Source: Pseudomonadota bacterium
Lineage (GTDB): Bacteria > Pseudomonadota > Alphaproteobacteria > Reyranellales > Reyranellaceae
Assembly: GCA_018240685.1 (NCBI GenBank)
Contig: JAFEFG010000049.1
Span: 1-34,514, forward strand
Reading direction: 5' to 3'
DNA length: 34,514 nucleotides
The notes under the pieces were generated by a model. That model was not told the origin of the DNA. It did not search any database and saw only the letters and a program-made list of their open reading frames with translations. This document shows positions 25,172 to 31,461 of the stretch, one piece after another (position 1 is the stretch's first letter; the number at the start of each line of letters is the position of its first letter). A program made the position numbers and the translations under genes.

Positions 25172-28117
25172 TCAATGCGCCGCCGCCCAGTTCAGACCGA
25201 CGCCGGTCTCGACCACCAGCGGCACGGTCAGCTTCGCGGCACCTTCCATCACCTGGCGGGCGACTTCCTTCGTCTTGTCGATCTCGTTGTCGGCGACCTC
25301 GAACAGCAGTTCGTCGTGCACCTGCAGCAGCATGCGTGCCTCGAGATGGGCGTCCCTGAGCGCTTGCGGCAGGCGGATCATGGCCCGCTTGATAATGTCG
25401 GCGGCACCGCCCTGCAGCGGCGCGTTGATCGCGGCGCGCTCGGCGAAGGCGCGCATGCCCTGGCTCTTGTCGTTGATGAACCTGAGGTGGATCTTGCGGC
25501 CGAACGGCGTTTGCACGTAGCCGTGCTTGCGTGCGAAGTCCTTGGTCCGCTCCATGTAGTCGCGGATGCCGGGATAGCGCTGGAAGTACCTGGCGATGTA
25601 GTCGCGCGCCTCGGGCTGGCCGATGCCGAGCTGGGCGGCGAGGCCGAAGGCCGAGATGCCGTAGATGATGCCGAAGTTGATCGCCTTGGCGCGGCGGCGC
25701 ACCAGCGGATCCATGCCCTTGATCGGCACGCCGAACATCTCGCTCGCGGTGATGGCATGGATGTCGTCGCCGCGGGCGAACGCCTCCTTCAGCGAGTCGA
25801 TGTCGGCGACATGGGCGAGTAGCCGCAGCTCGATCTGCGAATAGTCGGCGGAGAGGAGCTTGTGGCCCTTCTCGGCGATGAAGGCCTCGCGGATCTTGCG
25901 GCCTTCCTCGGTGCGCACCGGGATGTTCTGCAGGTTGGGATCGGTCGAGGCCAGCCGGCCAGTGGCGGCGCCCGTCATGTGATAGGACGTGTGGACGCGG
26001 CCGGTCCTGGCGTCGAGCTGGCGCACCAGCGCATCGGTGTAGGTGCCCTTGAGCTTGGCGAGCTGCCGATGCTCCAGGATCTTCACCGGCAGCGGATGGC
26101 CGGCATTGGCCAGTTCGTCCAGCACCGAGGCGTCGGTCGACCAGGCTCCGGTCTTGCTGCGCTTGCCGCCCGGCAGCTTCTGCTCGTCGAACAGGATCTC
26201 GCCCAGCTGCTTGGGCGAGTTCACGTTGAACTCGCGGCCGGCGATCTTGTGGATCTCGCGCTCGAGGTCGGCGAGGCGCTTCTCGAAATCGGCGCTGAGC
26301 CGCTTGAGGGCGGGCGCATCGATCTTGACGCCGGCCTGCTCCATGCCCAGCAGGACGGGGATCAGCGGCCGCTCGATCGTCTCGTACATGGTGACCATGC
26401 GCTCATGGGCGAGGCGGGGCTTGAACTGCGCCCAGAGCTGCAGCGTCACGTCGGCATCCTCGGCGGCATATTCCATCGCCCGCTCGATCGGCACCTTGTC
26501 GAAGCTCACCTGCTTGGCGCCGCTGCCCGCGACATCGGAGAACTTGATGGTCTTGTGCTCTAGATACTTCTCGGCGAGCTCATCCATGCCATGGCCGTGC
26601 TTGCCGCCGTCGAGCACGAAGGAGAGCAGCATCGTGTCGTCGACCGGCCCGATCCTGACGCCGTAGCGCTCGAACACGCCCATGTCGTACTTGATGTTCT
26701 GGCCGACCTTGAGCACGCCGGAATCCTCGAGCATCGGCTTGAGCTTGGCGATCGCCGTCTTGAGGTCGATCTGGCCGGGCAGCAGCTTGCCGCCGCCGTC
26801 GGGCGTTTCGCCGGTACCGCCGAGATCGAGCGCGCCCTGGGCCTCGCCGTTCTTCTCGCCGCCGGGGGCGCGATGGGCGAGCGGCAGATAGGCCGCGCGC
26901 CGGCGCGTGGAGTTCACGTTGTCCCACGGTCCGTCGAGCAGGGCGAGCGACACTCCCACCAGCCCGGCGTTGTTGGAATCGAGCGCGTCGGTCTCGCAGT
27001 CGAAGGCGACGACGCCGGCCCTGGTCGCCTCCGCGATCCAGTCGTCGAGCGCCGCCTCGTCGCGGATCAACTCGTAGTCGGCGGCCGTGAAGGGCCGGTT
27101 GGGCTTCGCGCGCGCGGGTGGCGCAGGCTTCGGTGTAACCGGTTCGGCCTTCGTGGCCGTCGCCGGCGCGGTGGCGGGCGCCACGGGCGCCGTCGCCTCG
27201 CCCAGTTCCTTGGCGTACTTGGCGATCAGGCTCTTGAAGCCCTGCTGTTCCAGCCACGGCAGCAGCACGTTGGGGTCGGGCTTCCTCTTGTCGAACGAGT
27301 CGGGATCGGCCGGCGCCGGAACGTCGTCCCTGAGCTGCACCAGCTGCCGGGAGATGCGGGCCAGTTCGGCGTTGGTCTGCAGGGCCTCGCGGCGCTTGGG
27401 CTGCTTGATCTCGCCGGCGCGCTGCAGCAGCGTTTCGAGGTCGCCGTATTCGTTGATGAGCTGCGCCGCGGTCTTGACGCCGATGCCGGGCACGCCCGGC
27501 ACGTTGTCGGTCGAATCGCCTGCCAGCGCCTGGACATCGACGACCTTGTCCGGCGTGACGCCGAACTTCTCCATCACCGCGTCGGGGCCGAGCTTCTTCT
27601 GCTTGATGGGGTCCATCATGTCGACGCCGGGCCGGATGAGCTGCATCAGGTCCTTGTCGGACGAGACGATGGTGCAGGTCCCGCCTTCCTCCAGCGCCAT
27701 GCGGGCGTAGGTCGCGATCAGGTCGTCGGCCTCGTAGCCCTCGAGTTCGCAGACCGTGACGTTGAACGCCTTGGCCGCCTCGCGGATGAGCGGGAATTGC
27801 GGGATGAGGTCTTCCGGCGGCTCGGGCCGGTTGGCCTTGTACTTGTCGTAGATCTTGTTGCGGAAGGTGGTGCGCCCCGCATCCAGAACCATCGCGATAT
27901 GGTCGACTTCGGGATCGTCGAGGTGAATGGCCAGCATGCGGCAGAAGCCGTAGACGGCATTGATGGGCGTGCCGTCGGGCCGCGTCATTGGCGGCAGCGC
28001 ATGGAAGGCGCGGAAGAGGTAGCCCGACCCGTCGACGAGCCAGAGATGCCGGATGGGCGCGCCGTCGCCTTTCGTCGCCTTGGTCTGGGCCGGAGCGGGA
28101 GCCTTGGATTTTGCCAT
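25172..28117 (-). CDS. polA: DNA polymerase I
   Basis: A 981-residue replication and repair polymerase with all three domains. The 5'-3' exonuclease (about 20-310) starts with HLWLVDGSGYLFRAFHALPP and has the helical clamp region EGYEADDLIATYARMA. An Ala/Pro-rich linker of about 30 residues follows. The 3'-5' exonuclease is intact: FDCETDALD (Exo I), GQNIKYDMGVFERYG (Exo II) and YAAEDADVTLQLWAQF (Exo III), so proofreading is expected. Polymerase motifs are LLSADYSQIELRLLAHVA (A), RRRAKAINFGIIYGISAFG (B) and LLQVHDELLFEV (C). ATG at 28117. It is divergent from the riboswitch-controlled GDT1 gene, with 77 bases to the likely riboswitch transcript start. Confidence 0.97.
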   Translation of the reverse strand: MAKSKAPAPAQTKATKGDGAPIRHLWLVDGSGYLFRAFHALPPMTRPDGTPINAVYGFCRMLAIHLDDPEVDHIAMVLDAGRTTFRNKIYDKYKANRPEPPEDLIPQFPLIREAAKAFNVTVCELEGYEADDLIATYARMALEEGGTCTIVSSDKDLMQLIRPGVDMMDPIKQKKLGPDAVMEKFGVTPDKVVDVQALAGDSTDNVPGVPGIGVKTAAQLINEYGDLETLLQRAGEIKQPKRREALQTNAELARISRQLVQLRDDVPAPADPDSFDKRKPDPNVLLPWLEQQGFKSLIAKYAKELGEATAPVAPATAPATATKAEPVTPKPAPPARAKPNRPFTAADYELIRDEAALDDWIAEATRAGVVAFDCETDALDSNNAGLVGVSLALLDGPWDNVNSTRRRAAYLPLAHRAPGGEKNGEAQGALDLGGTGETPDGGGKLLPGQIDLKTAIAKLKPMLEDSGVLKVGQNIKYDMGVFERYGVRIGPVDDTMLLSFVLDGGKHGHGMDELAEKYLEHKTIKFSDVAGSGAKQVSFDKVPIERAMEYAAEDADVTLQLWAQFKPRLAHERMVTMYETIERPLIPVLLGMEQAGVKIDAPALKRLSADFEKRLADLEREIHKIAGREFNVNSPKQLGEILFDEQKLPGGKRSKTGAWSTDASVLDELANAGHPLPVKILEHRQLAKLKGTYTDALVRQLDARTGRVHTSYHMTGAATGRLASTDPNLQNIPVRTEEGRKIREAFIAEKGHKLLSADYSQIELRLLAHVADIDSLKEAFARGDDIHAITASEMFGVPIKGMDPLVRRRAKAINFGIIYGISAFGLAAQLGIGQPEARDYIARYFQRYPGIRDYMERTKDFARKHGYVQTPFGRKIHLRFINDKSQGMRAFAERAAINAPLQGGAADIIKRAMIRLPQALRDAHLEARMLLQVHDELLFEVADNEIDKTKEVARQVMEGAAKLTVPLVVETGVGLNWAAAH

Positions 28118-28159
28118 GGCTCAACGTCTAGCACGCTGGGAGCGGCATCCGGGAGGCGC

Positions 28160-28188
28160 TTGCGCTTACTTGCCCACCGGGCTATGTC
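28160..28188 (+). promoter_or_regulatory. Possible promoter of the riboswitch-GDT1 transcript
   Basis: TTGCGC and TATGTC with 17-base spacing lie just in front of the riboswitch core, so that transcription would start near 28195, the expected 5' end of the aptamer. Both boxes match the sigma-70 consensus at only three of six positions. Support comes from position, not from sequence strength. Confidence 0.3.
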
Positions 28189-28194
28189 CCCGCC

Positions 28195-28330
28195 GTCATT
28201 GGGGAGTAGCCGGCCCTGCTTCAGGGGCGGATGCGTCAACAGACTTGGTTCCTTCGACGGTTTCCGGCGGGGACCATGGCGCTTCCGGCGACTTGCGGCC
28301 GTTTATCGGCCGCGCTTGGCGAGACCTTTG
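28195..28330 (+). ncRNA. yybP-ykoY-type manganese riboswitch
   Basis: Three conserved blocks of the yybP-ykoY aptamer appear in order: GGGGAGTAGC (28201-28210), GTCAACAGACTTGG (28235-28248) and GGCGAGACC (28318-28326). Between the first two is a P2-like hairpin, CCGGCCCTG with CAGGGGCGG (8 of 9 pairs), and in the later arm GCGGCCG/CGGCCGC pairs over TTTAT. The two Gs of the first block pair with the CC of GAGACC; further P1 pairing is weak (two T-T mismatches). This RNA family is known to bind Mn2+ and to control Mn2+ exporters, and the gene downstream is a GDT1-type transporter, which supports the call. An alternative would be a non-functional remnant. Confidence 0.82.
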
Positions 28331-28349
28331 GCTTGCAGGCGTTTCACCC

Positions 28350-28398
28350 GCGGGATCGGGCGGCGCCGGCGGCCAATGGTTTGTGCGCTCGATCCCGC
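28350..28398 (+). promoter_or_regulatory. Inverted repeat in the likely riboswitch expression platform
   Basis: GCGGGATCG (28350-28358) and CGATCCCGC (28390-28398) form a perfect 9-bp stem between the aptamer and the GDT1 ATG at 28413. The 3' arm ends 14 bases before the start codon. It may switch access to the initiation region; no U-tract follows, so control of translation is more likely than termination. Confidence 0.45.
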
Positions 28399-28412
28399 CT
28401 GATGATTCGATC

Positions 28413-28985
28413 ATGGAAGCTTTCTTCGTCTCGGCGGGCCTCGTGGCCGTGGCCGAGATCGGTGACAAGACGCAGCTGCTGGCGATGATCCTGGCCAGCC
28501 GCTATCGCCAGCCCGTGCCCATCATCCTGGGAATCCTGGTGGCGACGCTGGCCAACCATGCCCTCGCCGCCAGCATCGGAGCGGAAGTGGCCTCCTGGGT
28601 CGGGCCGCAGACCATGCGCTGGGTCCTGGCCGTGCTGTTCCTGGGGATGGCGGTCTGGTGCCTGATCCCGGACAAGGCCGACGAGGGGCCCAAGACGGTC
28701 GGTCGGGCCGGCGCCTTCCTGGCCACGGCCGTCGCCTTCTTCCTGGTCGAGATGGGCGACAAGACCCAGATCGCCACCGTCGGCCTTGCCGCGCGCTTCC
28801 ACAACATCGTGACGGTTACGGCCGGCACGACGGTCGGCATGTTGCTGGCCAACGTGCCAGCGGTGCTGTTCGGAGACGTGCTGTCGAGAAAGATCTCGCT
28901 TCGGCTCGTCCGCTCGGTCGCGGCGGCGGCCTTCGCGGTCCTGGGGATTCTCACCCTGCTGGGCGTCAACATGGGACTGTTCTAG
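28413..28985 (+). CDS. GDT1/TMEM165 (UPF0016) family cation exporter, probable Mn2+ exporter
   Basis: A 190-residue membrane protein with six predicted helices in two repeats, each carrying the family motif E-x-G-D-K-T: Glu15-Thr20 in AVAEIGDKTQLLAMILASRY and Glu113-Thr118 in FLVEMGDKTQIATVGLAARF. These acidic residues bind cations in the family, which exports Mn2+ or Ca2+. The ATG at 28413 gives the usual short N-terminus (MEAFFVSAGLVAVAE); the open frame extends upstream through the riboswitch but that part has no family support. The yybP-ykoY-type leader makes Mn2+ the most likely substrate. No Shine-Dalgarno sequence is obvious; a stem ends just in front of the start. Confidence 0.9.
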   Translation: MEAFFVSAGLVAVAEIGDKTQLLAMILASRYRQPVPIILGILVATLANHALAASIGAEVASWVGPQTMRWVLAVLFLGMAVWCLIPDKADEGPKTVGRAGAFLATAVAFFLVEMGDKTQIATVGLAARFHNIVTVTAGTTVGMLLANVPAVLFGDVLSRKISLRLVRSVAAAAFAVLGILTLLGVNMGLF

Positions 28986-28995
28986 CCGTCCCGCT

Positions 28996-29017
28996 CTGTC
29001 CCCGAGGGGTGGGACAG
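28996..29017 (+). terminator. Hairpin just after the GDT1 gene
   Basis: CTGTCCC (28996-29002) and GGGACAG (29011-29017) pair perfectly over an 8-base loop, starting 11 bases after the GDT1 stop. No T-run follows. It could act as a Rho-assisted or weak terminator. Confidence 0.35.
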
Positions 29018-29030
29018 CTTGGATGCCGAT

Positions 29031-29058
29031 GGGACAAGCGTTTCAGACGCCTTGTCCC
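29031..29058. repeat. Second hairpin, GGGACAAGCGT with ACGCCTTGTCCC
   Basis: Arms 29031-29041 and 29047-29058 pair with one bulged C over the loop TTCAG. Its right arm runs straight into the 9-base GTCCC repeat array and supplies the first GTCCC unit. Confidence 0.5.
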
Positions 29059-29116
29059 GCTCGTCCCGGCTGTCCCGTCCGTCCCACGTGTCCCGTCCGT
29101 CCCACGTGTCCCACGC
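29054..29116. repeat. Seven tandem 9-base units GTCCCNNNN
   Basis: GTCCC recurs exactly every 9 bases at 29054, 29063, 29072, 29081, 29090, 29099 and 29108. The four variable bases are GCTC, GGCT, GTCC, ACGT, GTCC, ACGT, ACGC, so the middle forms an 18-base unit repeated twice. The array lies between the convergent GDT1 and DUF4336 genes and is not part of any gene I can support; because 9 is divisible by 3, it leaves frames open and makes artefactual repetitive peptides on both strands. Confidence 0.85.
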
Positions 29117-29166
29117 ACCATCATGCAACGCCGGGCTCGCAGCGTCCGCGAGGTCTCGGCCTGCGC

Positions 29167-29910
29167 CTAGAGAAGCCAGCGGAAGGCACGACGCAGTTCG
29201 GCCGCCCCGTCGGTTTCGAACCAGCGCCCATGCGCGATGACGACGCGCTTGGGGCCCCAGGCGATCATGCGTTCCACCGCTTCGCGCAGTTGGACCTTCT
29301 GCTTCGCGTAGGTGAGGCGCATGTCCCTCGGCATCTGGCCGTCGGGCGCCAGGACGCCACCCAGCCGCATGAGCCAGCGCATCCACATGGAAGAGGCCTT
29401 GCGGGGCTCGAAGTTCTCGATCAGGTCGGCCACGATCAGGGTCGCGCTCGGCCGATGGAAGAAGACGACCTCGGTCATGAAGCTTCCGTGGACCGGCAGG
29501 GTCGCGATCGTTTCGTCCCACGGATAGCCCTGCTCGCGATCGAGCGGCCGGTAAGGGAAATCGATGCGGCCGCGCGCCTGTTCGGCGATGCGTGGCGCGA
29601 GATAGACGTCGGCCTCGGGGAATGCGCGCCTCCAGTCGGGGATCCACCAATAGTGGAGGCGGTTCGGCCCGATGATCCAGCGCGGCCGGCCGATCGCTTC
29701 GATTTCCGCCTTCAGAGACGGAACGAGCGGCGTGGGCGAATGGATGAAGAGTGCATCGTCCTGCCGCACGACGGTCATCCGCGTGGGGAAGGGCATCTTC
29801 GGCCAGGGCATCCCGAAGCGGATCAGCGGTCCATCGACGATCCAGAGATCGCGCGCGATGCGTTTGAGCGTGTCGAGGGGCGGATAGGCGGGCTCGATCG
29901 GGCCGTGCAT
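29167..29910 (-). CDS. DUF4336 domain protein
   Basis: A 247-residue protein of the DUF4336 family, which has a metallo-beta-lactamase-like fold of unknown function. Visible blocks are LDTLKRIARDLWIVDGP near the start, WIIGPNRLHYWWIPDWRRAF in the middle, EVVFFHRPSATLIVADLIEN after that, and KRVVIAHGRWFETDG at the end. The classical HxHxDH zinc motif is not present in this form, but His in NRLHYW and HGRW are family-conserved. The ATG at 29910 (MHGPIEPAYPPLDTLK) matches the usual start; an upstream extension to 30078 has low-complexity, non-family sequence. It stands alone, convergent with GDT1 and divergent from the RND efflux genes. No function is claimed. Confidence 0.82.
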   Translation of the reverse strand: MHGPIEPAYPPLDTLKRIARDLWIVDGPLIRFGMPWPKMPFPTRMTVVRQDDALFIHSPTPLVPSLKAEIEAIGRPRWIIGPNRLHYWWIPDWRRAFPEADVYLAPRIAEQARGRIDFPYRPLDREQGYPWDETIATLPVHGSFMTEVVFFHRPSATLIVADLIENFEPRKASSMWMRWLMRLGGVLAPDGQMPRDMRLTYAKQKVQLREAVERMIAWGPKRVVIAHGRWFETDGAAELRRAFRWLL

Positions 29911-30246
29911 GACGGGGCGGTGAACGTTGCGTGCCGGCAAACCGGCGTCGGGTGCGAAGCCGTCGCCAATGTCGCATCGCTGCCTGTGGGCGCCGGTACT
30001 CCAATTTGACGCGGCGCTGCCGCCCGTCCTCGCAGCCCGGAGGGTGGCTGGCCGCCACATTCGTCCTGTTTTCGCCACACTCGGCGGCGATAGTCAGCAC
30101 ACAATGTGCAATGGATAACGCCGTCAAATCATAGGCTTAGCTGCTGCATTGGCTGTGAGATGGCGGTAACCGGGAGGAAAGGCACCGCATCCGGAAGGAG
30201 CATGCGTGCGGTCGCGTGCGTGCGTAGTTCATCAGTGGGAGAGAAG
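29911..30246. other. 336-base intergenic region between DUF4336 and the RND operon
   Basis: No gene is supported here. It must hold the divergent promoters for the DUF4336 gene and the efflux operon, but I see no strong -35/-10 pair. The one clear symmetry is GCACA-CAA-TGTGC at 30097-30109. A short GCCGG-CAAA-CCGGC stem lies near 29934. GGGAG seven bases before 30247 is the ribosome binding site of the adaptor gene. Confidence 0.6.
30097..30109. promoter_or_regulatory. Palindrome GCACA-CAA-TGTGC, candidate operator of the RND operon
   Basis: A 5-base perfect inverted repeat with a 3-base spacer, 138 bases before the adaptor ATG, in a comparatively A/T-rich stretch. TetR- and MarR-type repressors of efflux pumps use sites of this kind, but no regulator gene is adjacent within the window. 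Confidence 0.3.
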
Positions 30247-31461
30247 ATGCGTATCGACAAGCGTGTGAGAATGGGGGCGGTTGCGCTGGCCGTTTCGGGC
30301 GTGCTGGCAGCGACGTTTTCCTTCCTCTGGGGGCGCGAGACGCCGACATCCGCCGCAGCCGAGACGGCGCCGCCGGACGTGAGCATCGTCACCGTCAAGG
30401 CCGAGGATCGCGCCATTCTGCGCGAGCTTCCGGGCCGCATTGCTCCGATGCGCGTGGCCGACGTACGGCCGCGGGTGTCCGGCATCATCGTCGCGCGCAT
30501 GTTCAACCAGGGCAGCGACGTGAAGGCGGGCGATCCGCTCTACCAGATCGATCCGAAGCCCTTCGAGGTCGAACTGCAGGCGCAGGAGGCGGCGCTGGCC
30601 AAGGCCAATGCCGCGCTCGACCACGCCATCCTCCAGGAGAAGCGCGCGCTTGCGATGACGAAGGCGCAGGCGATCTCCCAGGCCCAGAGCGAGACCGCAG
30701 TCGCAACCGTGCAGCAGGCGCGGGCCGAGGTGGCTGCGCGCCAGGCCGATGTGGCGCGTGCGCGCCTCAACCTCGACTATGCGACCATTCGGGCGCCGAT
30801 CAGCGGCCGCATCGGCGCCGCGCTTGCCAGCGAAGGTGCGCTCGTCGTCCAGAACGATGCGGTCAATCTCGCCACCATCCAGCAGCTCGACCCCATCTAT
30901 GCCGATTTCACCCAGTCGGTGAGCGAGCTCAACAAGCTGCGCCAGGCCTTCGAATCGGGCGATCTGGAGCGGATCTCGCCCGACGCGGCGAAGGTCCAGC
31001 TCGTGATGGACGACGGATCGCGCTATCCGTTCCCCGGCAAGCTGCTCTTCTCCGAGGCCAAGGTCGACGCCTCCACCGGCCAGGTCACGCTGCGCGGCGA
31101 GTTCGCAAATCCGAAGAACGTCCTGCTGCCGGGCATGTATGTGCGCGTGCTGATCGAGCAGGGCATCGATACCGATGCCATTGCGGTGCCGCAGCAGGCC
31201 GTGCAGTGGAATGGCGGCGGCGGCGCCGAGGTGTTCGTCGTCAAGGACGACGGCCGGGCTGCCGTGCAGCCGGTGCGGACCGGATCGCTTCAGGACGGCC
31301 AGTGGCTGGTGCTCGAAGGGTTGAAGCCCGGCGACCGGGTTGTCGTCGAAGGCTTCCAGAAGTTTGCGGCCGGCGACAGCGTCCGGCCCTTGCCCTGGAA
31401 TGAGCAGCAGGCGCGCGTCGAGCGTTCCTTGCGCACCGGCTTCACCGAAACGACACGCTGA
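30247..31461 (+). CDS. RND efflux periplasmic adaptor (AcrA/MexA family)
   Basis: A 404-residue membrane fusion protein linking an RND pump to an outer-membrane channel. A hydrophobic N-terminal anchor (about 9-28) has no lipobox cysteine, so it is not a lipoprotein like AcrA. ELPGRIAPMRVADVRPRVSG and DPLYQIDPKPFEVELQ form the first lipoyl half, an alpha-hairpin rich in Ala/Gln spans about 115-185, and LDYATIRAPISGRIGAALAS is the second lipoyl half. The beta-barrel and membrane-proximal parts follow (LLPGMYVRVLIEQGID; GLKPGDRVVVEGFQKF). ATG at 30247 has GGGAG seven bases upstream. The pump gene follows after nine bases. No outer-membrane factor is seen before the window ends. Confidence 0.94.
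   Translation: MRIDKRVRMGAVALAVSGVLAATFSFLWGRETPTSAAAETAPPDVSIVTVKAEDRAILRELPGRIAPMRVADVRPRVSGIIVARMFNQGSDVKAGDPLYQIDPKPFEVELQAQEAALAKANAALDHAILQEKRALAMTKAQAISQAQSETAVATVQQARAEVAARQADVARARLNLDYATIRAPISGRIGAALASEGALVVQNDAVNLATIQQLDPIYADFTQSVSELNKLRQAFESGDLERISPDAAKVQLVMDDGSRYPFPGKLLFSEAKVDASTGQVTLRGEFANPKNVLLPGMYVRVLIEQGIDTDAIAVPQQAVQWNGGGGAEVFVVKDDGRAAVQPVRTGSLQDGQWLVLEGLKPGDRVVVEGFQKFAAGDSVRPLPWNEQQARVERSLRTGFTETTR

Follow-up and report, generated by a model that had tools for sequence, protein, structure and literature searches.

The window (the whole stretch of 34,514 nucleotides that was analysed) carries a leader of the yybP-ykoY riboswitch class in the 295-base intergenic gap (28118-28412) that separates the start of the divergent polA gene at 28117 from the ATG of a GDT1/UPF0016 family gene at 28413 (Table 1). 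The product of the latter gene matches PF01169 in two stretches, far above the cut-off of 27 bits, and contains the E-x-G-D-(K/R)-(S/T) motif of the family twice, as EIGDKT at residue 15 and EMGDKT at residue 113. The gap, the 190-residue protein and its two motifs are all as the initial annotation had described them, and its call of a GDT1/TMEM165 family exporter agrees with the profile match. The NCBIfam profiles gave no match to the protein, and a sequence search for a related solved structure found none; by analogy with characterised members, the protein would export Mn2+. The reading frame is open upstream through the riboswitch to 28053 (28053-28985, 310 codons), and a longer protein starting there was considered and rejected: homology among relatives and their start codons place the start at the MEAF position, and the open frame is taken as chance. 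Immediately 3' of the gene lie GTCCC-rich near-repeats (29055-29110), and further downstream an RND efflux adaptor gene (30106-31461, forward strand; TIGR01730, 276 bits).

Table 1. Features of the polA-GDT1 intergenic region and the two genes that flank it.
Feature	Position	Strand	Evidence or remark
polA (DNA polymerase I), divergent neighbour	25172-28117	-	PF00476 525 bits, NF004397 1159 bits
Likely promoter: TTGCGC (28160-28165), 17-nt spacer, TATGTC (28183-28188)	28160-28188	+	By eye, 19 relatives
Mn2+ riboswitch aptamer	28189-28304	+	RF00080, 52.9 bits, gathering score 45, E 1.9e-11
P1.1 5' strand, GTCATTGG	28195-28202	+	Pairs with 28325-28332 except 28199/28328 and 28200/28327; likewise in 19/19 relatives
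Conserved core GGGGAGTAGC, L1 side	28201-28210	+	Sequence; invariant in 19/19 relatives
Conserved core GTCAACAGAC, L3 side	28235-28244	+	One base off the RF00080 consensus GUCAACAUAC
Core GGCGAGACC	28318-28326	+	Sequence
P1.1 3' strand CCTTTGGC (28325-28332), with core GGCGAGACC	28318-28332	+	Equivalent of X. oryzae GAGACCAGGGAU
Anti-P1 hairpin, 28318-28343 with 28362-28389	28318-28389	+	RNAalifold consensus of 19 leaders
Helix A 5' arm, GCGGGATCGGGC, in the anti-P1 apical loop	28350-28361	+	12 bp with 28387-28398
Helix A 3' arm, GCTCGATCCCGC	28387-28398	+	Ends 14 nt upstream of the start codon
GDT1/UPF0016 protein gene, 190 aa	28413-28985	+	PF01169, 148.9 bits

The class of the leader is clear from both its motifs and its covariance-model score. 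The core motifs of RF00080 (Mn2+ riboswitch, yybP-ykoY) occur in the expected order, GGGGAGUAG at 28201, GUCAACA at 28235 and (G/A)AGACC at 28318, and a P2 hairpin lies between the first two, as had been noted from the sequence at the outset. The initial annotation had named an RF00080 score above the gathering threshold as support for its yybP-ykoY assignment, and the match, whose E-value refers to the whole window, exceeds that threshold by 7.9 bits; it is also the sole match at E up to 1 across the 5.04-Mb genome. Motifs and match together are not a product of chance. Because the RF00080 model does not include P1, the score is independent of that helix. A second riboswitch was considered at 27938-28021, inside polA, where a NiCo model matches at 18.8 bits against a cut-off of 37 (E 0.38), and this too is taken as chance. 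The GDT1 gene, a putative Mn2+ homeostasis gene as expected for this class, lies directly 3' of the aptamer and is predicted to be under its control. This arrangement is already known, since UPF0016/GDT1 genes are reported under a yybP-ykoY riboswitch in 328 of the 333 screened strains that have a UPF0016 member (PMC7380456). The leader thus appears, judged by its sequence, to be a mostly ordinary Mn2+-sensing riboswitch ahead of a probable Mn2+ exporter gene.

Upstream of the aptamer, TTGC and TA(T/A) recur at equal spacing in 19 relatives when the leaders are compared by eye. The promoter-like pair is a weak consensus (three of six positions in each box) and was not listed by a scan of 28100-29200. 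It would place the transcription start near 28195, the first base of P1.1, and with such a start P1.1 would not extend further 5'.

The P1.1 helix pairs 28195-28198 with 28329-28332 and 28201-28202 with 28325-28326, and is interrupted by two interior mismatches, U28199/U28328 and U28200/U28327. It was compared across 80 usable leaders, which also served for the same-place helix test and for the comparisons of SD opening and C/G content described below. Left out of the 80 were L027 and L028-L057 (loci already represented, or GDT1 genes that lack the element) and L058 (the same match as in the genome of L007); a further 45 leaders were left out for lacking an exact GGGGAGTA or [GC]C.AGACC. P1.1 is conserved: all 19 of the closest leaders keep the remaining six pairs and leave both mismatch positions unpaired, with UU or UC facing UU. 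The tandem mismatch is present in 54/80 leaders (19/26 in the genus-and-order group, 24/36 among named records, which are mostly Burkholderiales by title, and 11/18 at class level), and the four outer pairs are kept in 55/80.

This bears directly on a doubt raised by the initial annotation, which had described P1 as weak, with two T-T mismatches, and as unusual for a working switch. The mismatches are real, but the form is the common one, and this comparison of leaders refutes the weak P1.1 as an argument against function. The study of the crystallised X. oryzae member describes P1.1 as an 'inherently weak' switch helix, stabilised by Mn2+ against strand invasion, with GAGACCAGGGAU as the probed 3' half (PMC6754395), and in L. 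lactis it is reported to be nucleated by its first two G-C pairs (PMC11087558). Since the mismatch is common among the leaders and P1.1 is also weak in X. oryzae, the weakness would be how the switch works, which accounts for the earlier doubt. The P1.1 strand can also pair with codons 2-7 (GGCUU/AAGCC and GAGAC/GUYUC), and most of the 19 leaders preserve these pairs; as both strand and protein have other reasons to be conserved, the pairings carry no evidential weight.

In the RNAalifold consensus of the 19 leaders, the P1.1 3' strand is recruited into a downstream anti-P1 hairpin. Its pairing is present in 97.7% of 398 cells, against 34.9-48.7% when slid, a comparison that favours the given fold over its slid versions because the structure was derived from the same 19 leaders that were counted. 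The hairpin covaries: six pairs are changed on both sides, which amounts to 19 two-sided cells where shuffles average 6.8, and none of 500 shuffles reaches as high. These two-sided changes all fall in the inner stem (28335-28343 with 28362-28370). The outer stem, the portion in competition with P1.1, shows one-sided variation only, and in many named records it reads, by eye, UGACCA/UGGUCA rather than UGGC/GCCA. In the window sequence alone the duplex is unremarkable (24/200 shuffles as good). Taken across the leaders, P1.1 closes the core, with the two positions unpaired in 19/19, and can be competed for by a downstream strand in a covarying hairpin, as expected of an RF00080 member. That the P1.1 3' strand can apparently re-pair into this conserved hairpin is a new detail.

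A second conserved pairing, helix A, joins the anti-P1 apical loop to a strand just 5' of the start codon. In the 19 leaders, 98.7% of 228 cells are paired, against 27.6-50.4% when slid, and no two-sided changes occur within this set. Helix A crosses the anti-P1 hairpin, so that the two should be mutually exclusive or form a pseudoknot. Of the 80 leaders, 41 have a helix at this location that outscores 95 or more of its 100 shuffles; by group, such a helix ranks in the top five of 100 shuffles in 21/26 of the genus-and-order leaders, 7/36 of the named records and 13/18 of the class-level leaders. These helices differ in sequence across genera (e.g. GCAGGGTCGGGC/GCCCGACCCTGC) and end 4-21 nt before the start codon.

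In equilibrium folding, helix A is dominant in 18/19 leaders if the P1.1 strand is free and again in 18/19 if it is hidden; as it dominates in either state, a choice between the anti-P1 hairpin and helix A would be kinetic, made during transcription. In the genus group the computed opening of the SD region is a little greater for the anti-P1 state (0.50 vs 0.43), a difference that is partly a length bias, as less RNA is folded; the values are 0.55 vs 0.47 and 0.47 vs 0.42 in the other two groups, and the direction is the same in 59/80 leaders. With P1.1 formed, the region from -30 to -15 is less open (0.17) than when the upstream RNA is shuffled (0.37, genus group); the SD region does not differ in this way (0.40 vs 0.41). 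The free 3' arm of helix A does not close the SD either (0.48 vs 0.48). Neither helix A as an SD blocker nor its 3' arm as an anti-SD is therefore supported against shuffled leaders, and folding settled neither the output route nor the polarity of the switch. An intrinsic terminator was also considered as output and set aside, as no terminator-like site was found in the scan of 28100-29200; regulation of translation and/or Rho-dependent termination is, by exclusion, the likeliest output.

The X. oryzae and L. lactis members resemble the present leader in their core motifs, in P1.1 as a short, weak switch helix and in a downstream hairpin that invades the P1.1 3' half (PMC6754395, PMC11087558). 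As described, however, both act through a terminator hairpin, of which nothing similar was found here. The E. coli mntP riboswitch likewise precedes an exporter gene, and its output is reported as translation plus Rho (PMC11647493). MntP belongs to a different transporter family than GDT1, and the likeness covers gene role and output rather than leader structure. The V. parahaemolyticus gene mneA, of the UPF0016/GDT1 family, is reported to be induced by Mn and has the same class of riboswitch before the same family of protein (PMC13274385); Vibrio is another lineage, and this likeness rests on riboswitch class and protein family rather than on a leader alignment. From such precedent, the GDT1 gene in the window is expected to be induced by Mn2+.

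Together, these observations make it very probable that the leader is a Mn2+ riboswitch that switches between P1.1, the anti-P1 hairpin and helix A, with the exporter ON at high cytosolic Mn2+. Transcription would begin at about 28195, and Mn2+ binding to the docked L1-L3 core would stabilise the short P1.1. Without Mn2+, the P1.1 3' strand would instead pair downstream into the anti-P1 hairpin, locking 28350-28361 in its loop and thereby blocking helix A, which would form only while P1.1 holds. The choice between the two folds would be made cotranscriptionally. Acting on translation, on Rho-dependent termination or on both, the switch would let the exporter be made when cytosolic Mn2+ is high.

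Other readings of the same leader differ in whether it works at all and in what it does. A relic aptamer, decayed or without function because its P1.1 is too weak, could draw on the two adjacent U-U mismatches beside the two closing G-C pairs, on the small excess of the RF00080 score over the gathering score and on the absence of the element from some members of the genus. Such decay is nevertheless scarcely credible: all core motifs are intact, the X. oryzae P1.1 is reported to be inherently weak too (PMC6754395), and conservation of the mismatch and of the four outer pairs among the leaders rules it out in our assessment. The opposite polarity, in which Mn2+ turns the gene off by favouring P1.1 and with it a repressive helix A beside the ribosome-binding site, would fit the slightly more open ribosome-binding region computed for the anti-P1 state, and inspection by eye shows a short UCAC/GUGA pairing beside helix A in some members of the genus. 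Yet the SD is sequestered no more than in shuffled leaders, Mn2+ is reported to induce related exporters (PMC13274385, PMC11647493), and repression by Mn2+ makes little sense for an exporter, so that an OFF switch is highly improbable.

Within the preferred reading of an ON switch, the output could take more specific forms. Rho alone might be the target, with Mn2+ causing helix A to hide its C-rich 3' arm from Rho and translation not directly gated. This would agree with the excess of C over G between -30 and -11 (0.43 vs 0.27, genus group), with the closing of the C-rich stretch by helix A while the SD region stays at chance level, and with the reported action of Rho on E. coli mntP (PMC11647493). 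However, an excess of C over G may be general for such leaders, and mntP is described as being under translation control as well (PMC11647493); we regard a purely Rho-dependent output as possible but unlikely. About as unlikely is a broader proposal, that the leader represents its own kind of conserved output device, common to many proteobacterial GDT1 riboswitches, in which the anti-P1 apical loop, freed while P1.1 holds, pairs with a strand whose end lies about 10-18 nt 5' of the start codon, and which would act by neither SD hiding nor a terminator and would instead gate Rho, RNA decay or 30S standby.

The pairing of riboswitch and GDT1 gene is known; what is new is the conserved anti-P1/helix A arrangement, which, if real, offers a testable model of switching without an intrinsic terminator. 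The locus further predicts Mn2+-controlled export in this Reyranellaceae-lineage host, and a false ground for doubting such elements is removed, the tandem U-U gap in P1.1 being the prevailing form in the related leaders that were compared.

The distribution of the element is patchy among relatives. RF00080 is above its cut-off in 26 of 61 (25/37 in the genus, the window's own genome included, 1/1 in the same order and 0/23 in the others), and GDT1 is present in 36/61 (35/37 in the genus). Of 289 genomes drawn evenly from the class, 39 match RF00080 at E up to 0.001, 29 of them above the cut-off; the class-level searches used Infernal's stricter filters, by which weak matches are lost, and 7 of the 27 new class-level loci have no GDT1 in the stretch examined. 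Ten of the 35 genus genomes with GDT1 have no RF00080 match. Nine GDT1 leaders were read, eight from as many of these ten genomes (G007 and G020 falling outside) and one a second copy in G012: the core motif is absent upstream of GDT1 in all nine, and cmscan of five (L036, L037, L047, L050, L055) gave no match. Eight riboswitch-less GDT1 genes (L036, L038, L042, L045, L047, L049, L050, L055) have another conserved leader in common and, by eye, are divergent from a putative cysteinyl-tRNA synthetase gene. L037 has the polA-GDT1 spacer of a genus member with the whole riboswitch missing, apparently a natural deletion. In G023, a near-identical second copy of the GDT1 leader (L027:1481-1700) precedes a CusF-like gene (PF11604), some 1.5 kb upstream from the first copy. 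This second copy has GGGGATTA in its core in place of GGGGAGTA, and its RF00080 score of 31.3 bits is below the cut-off; it is perhaps a copied riboswitch that became joined to another metal gene and is decaying.
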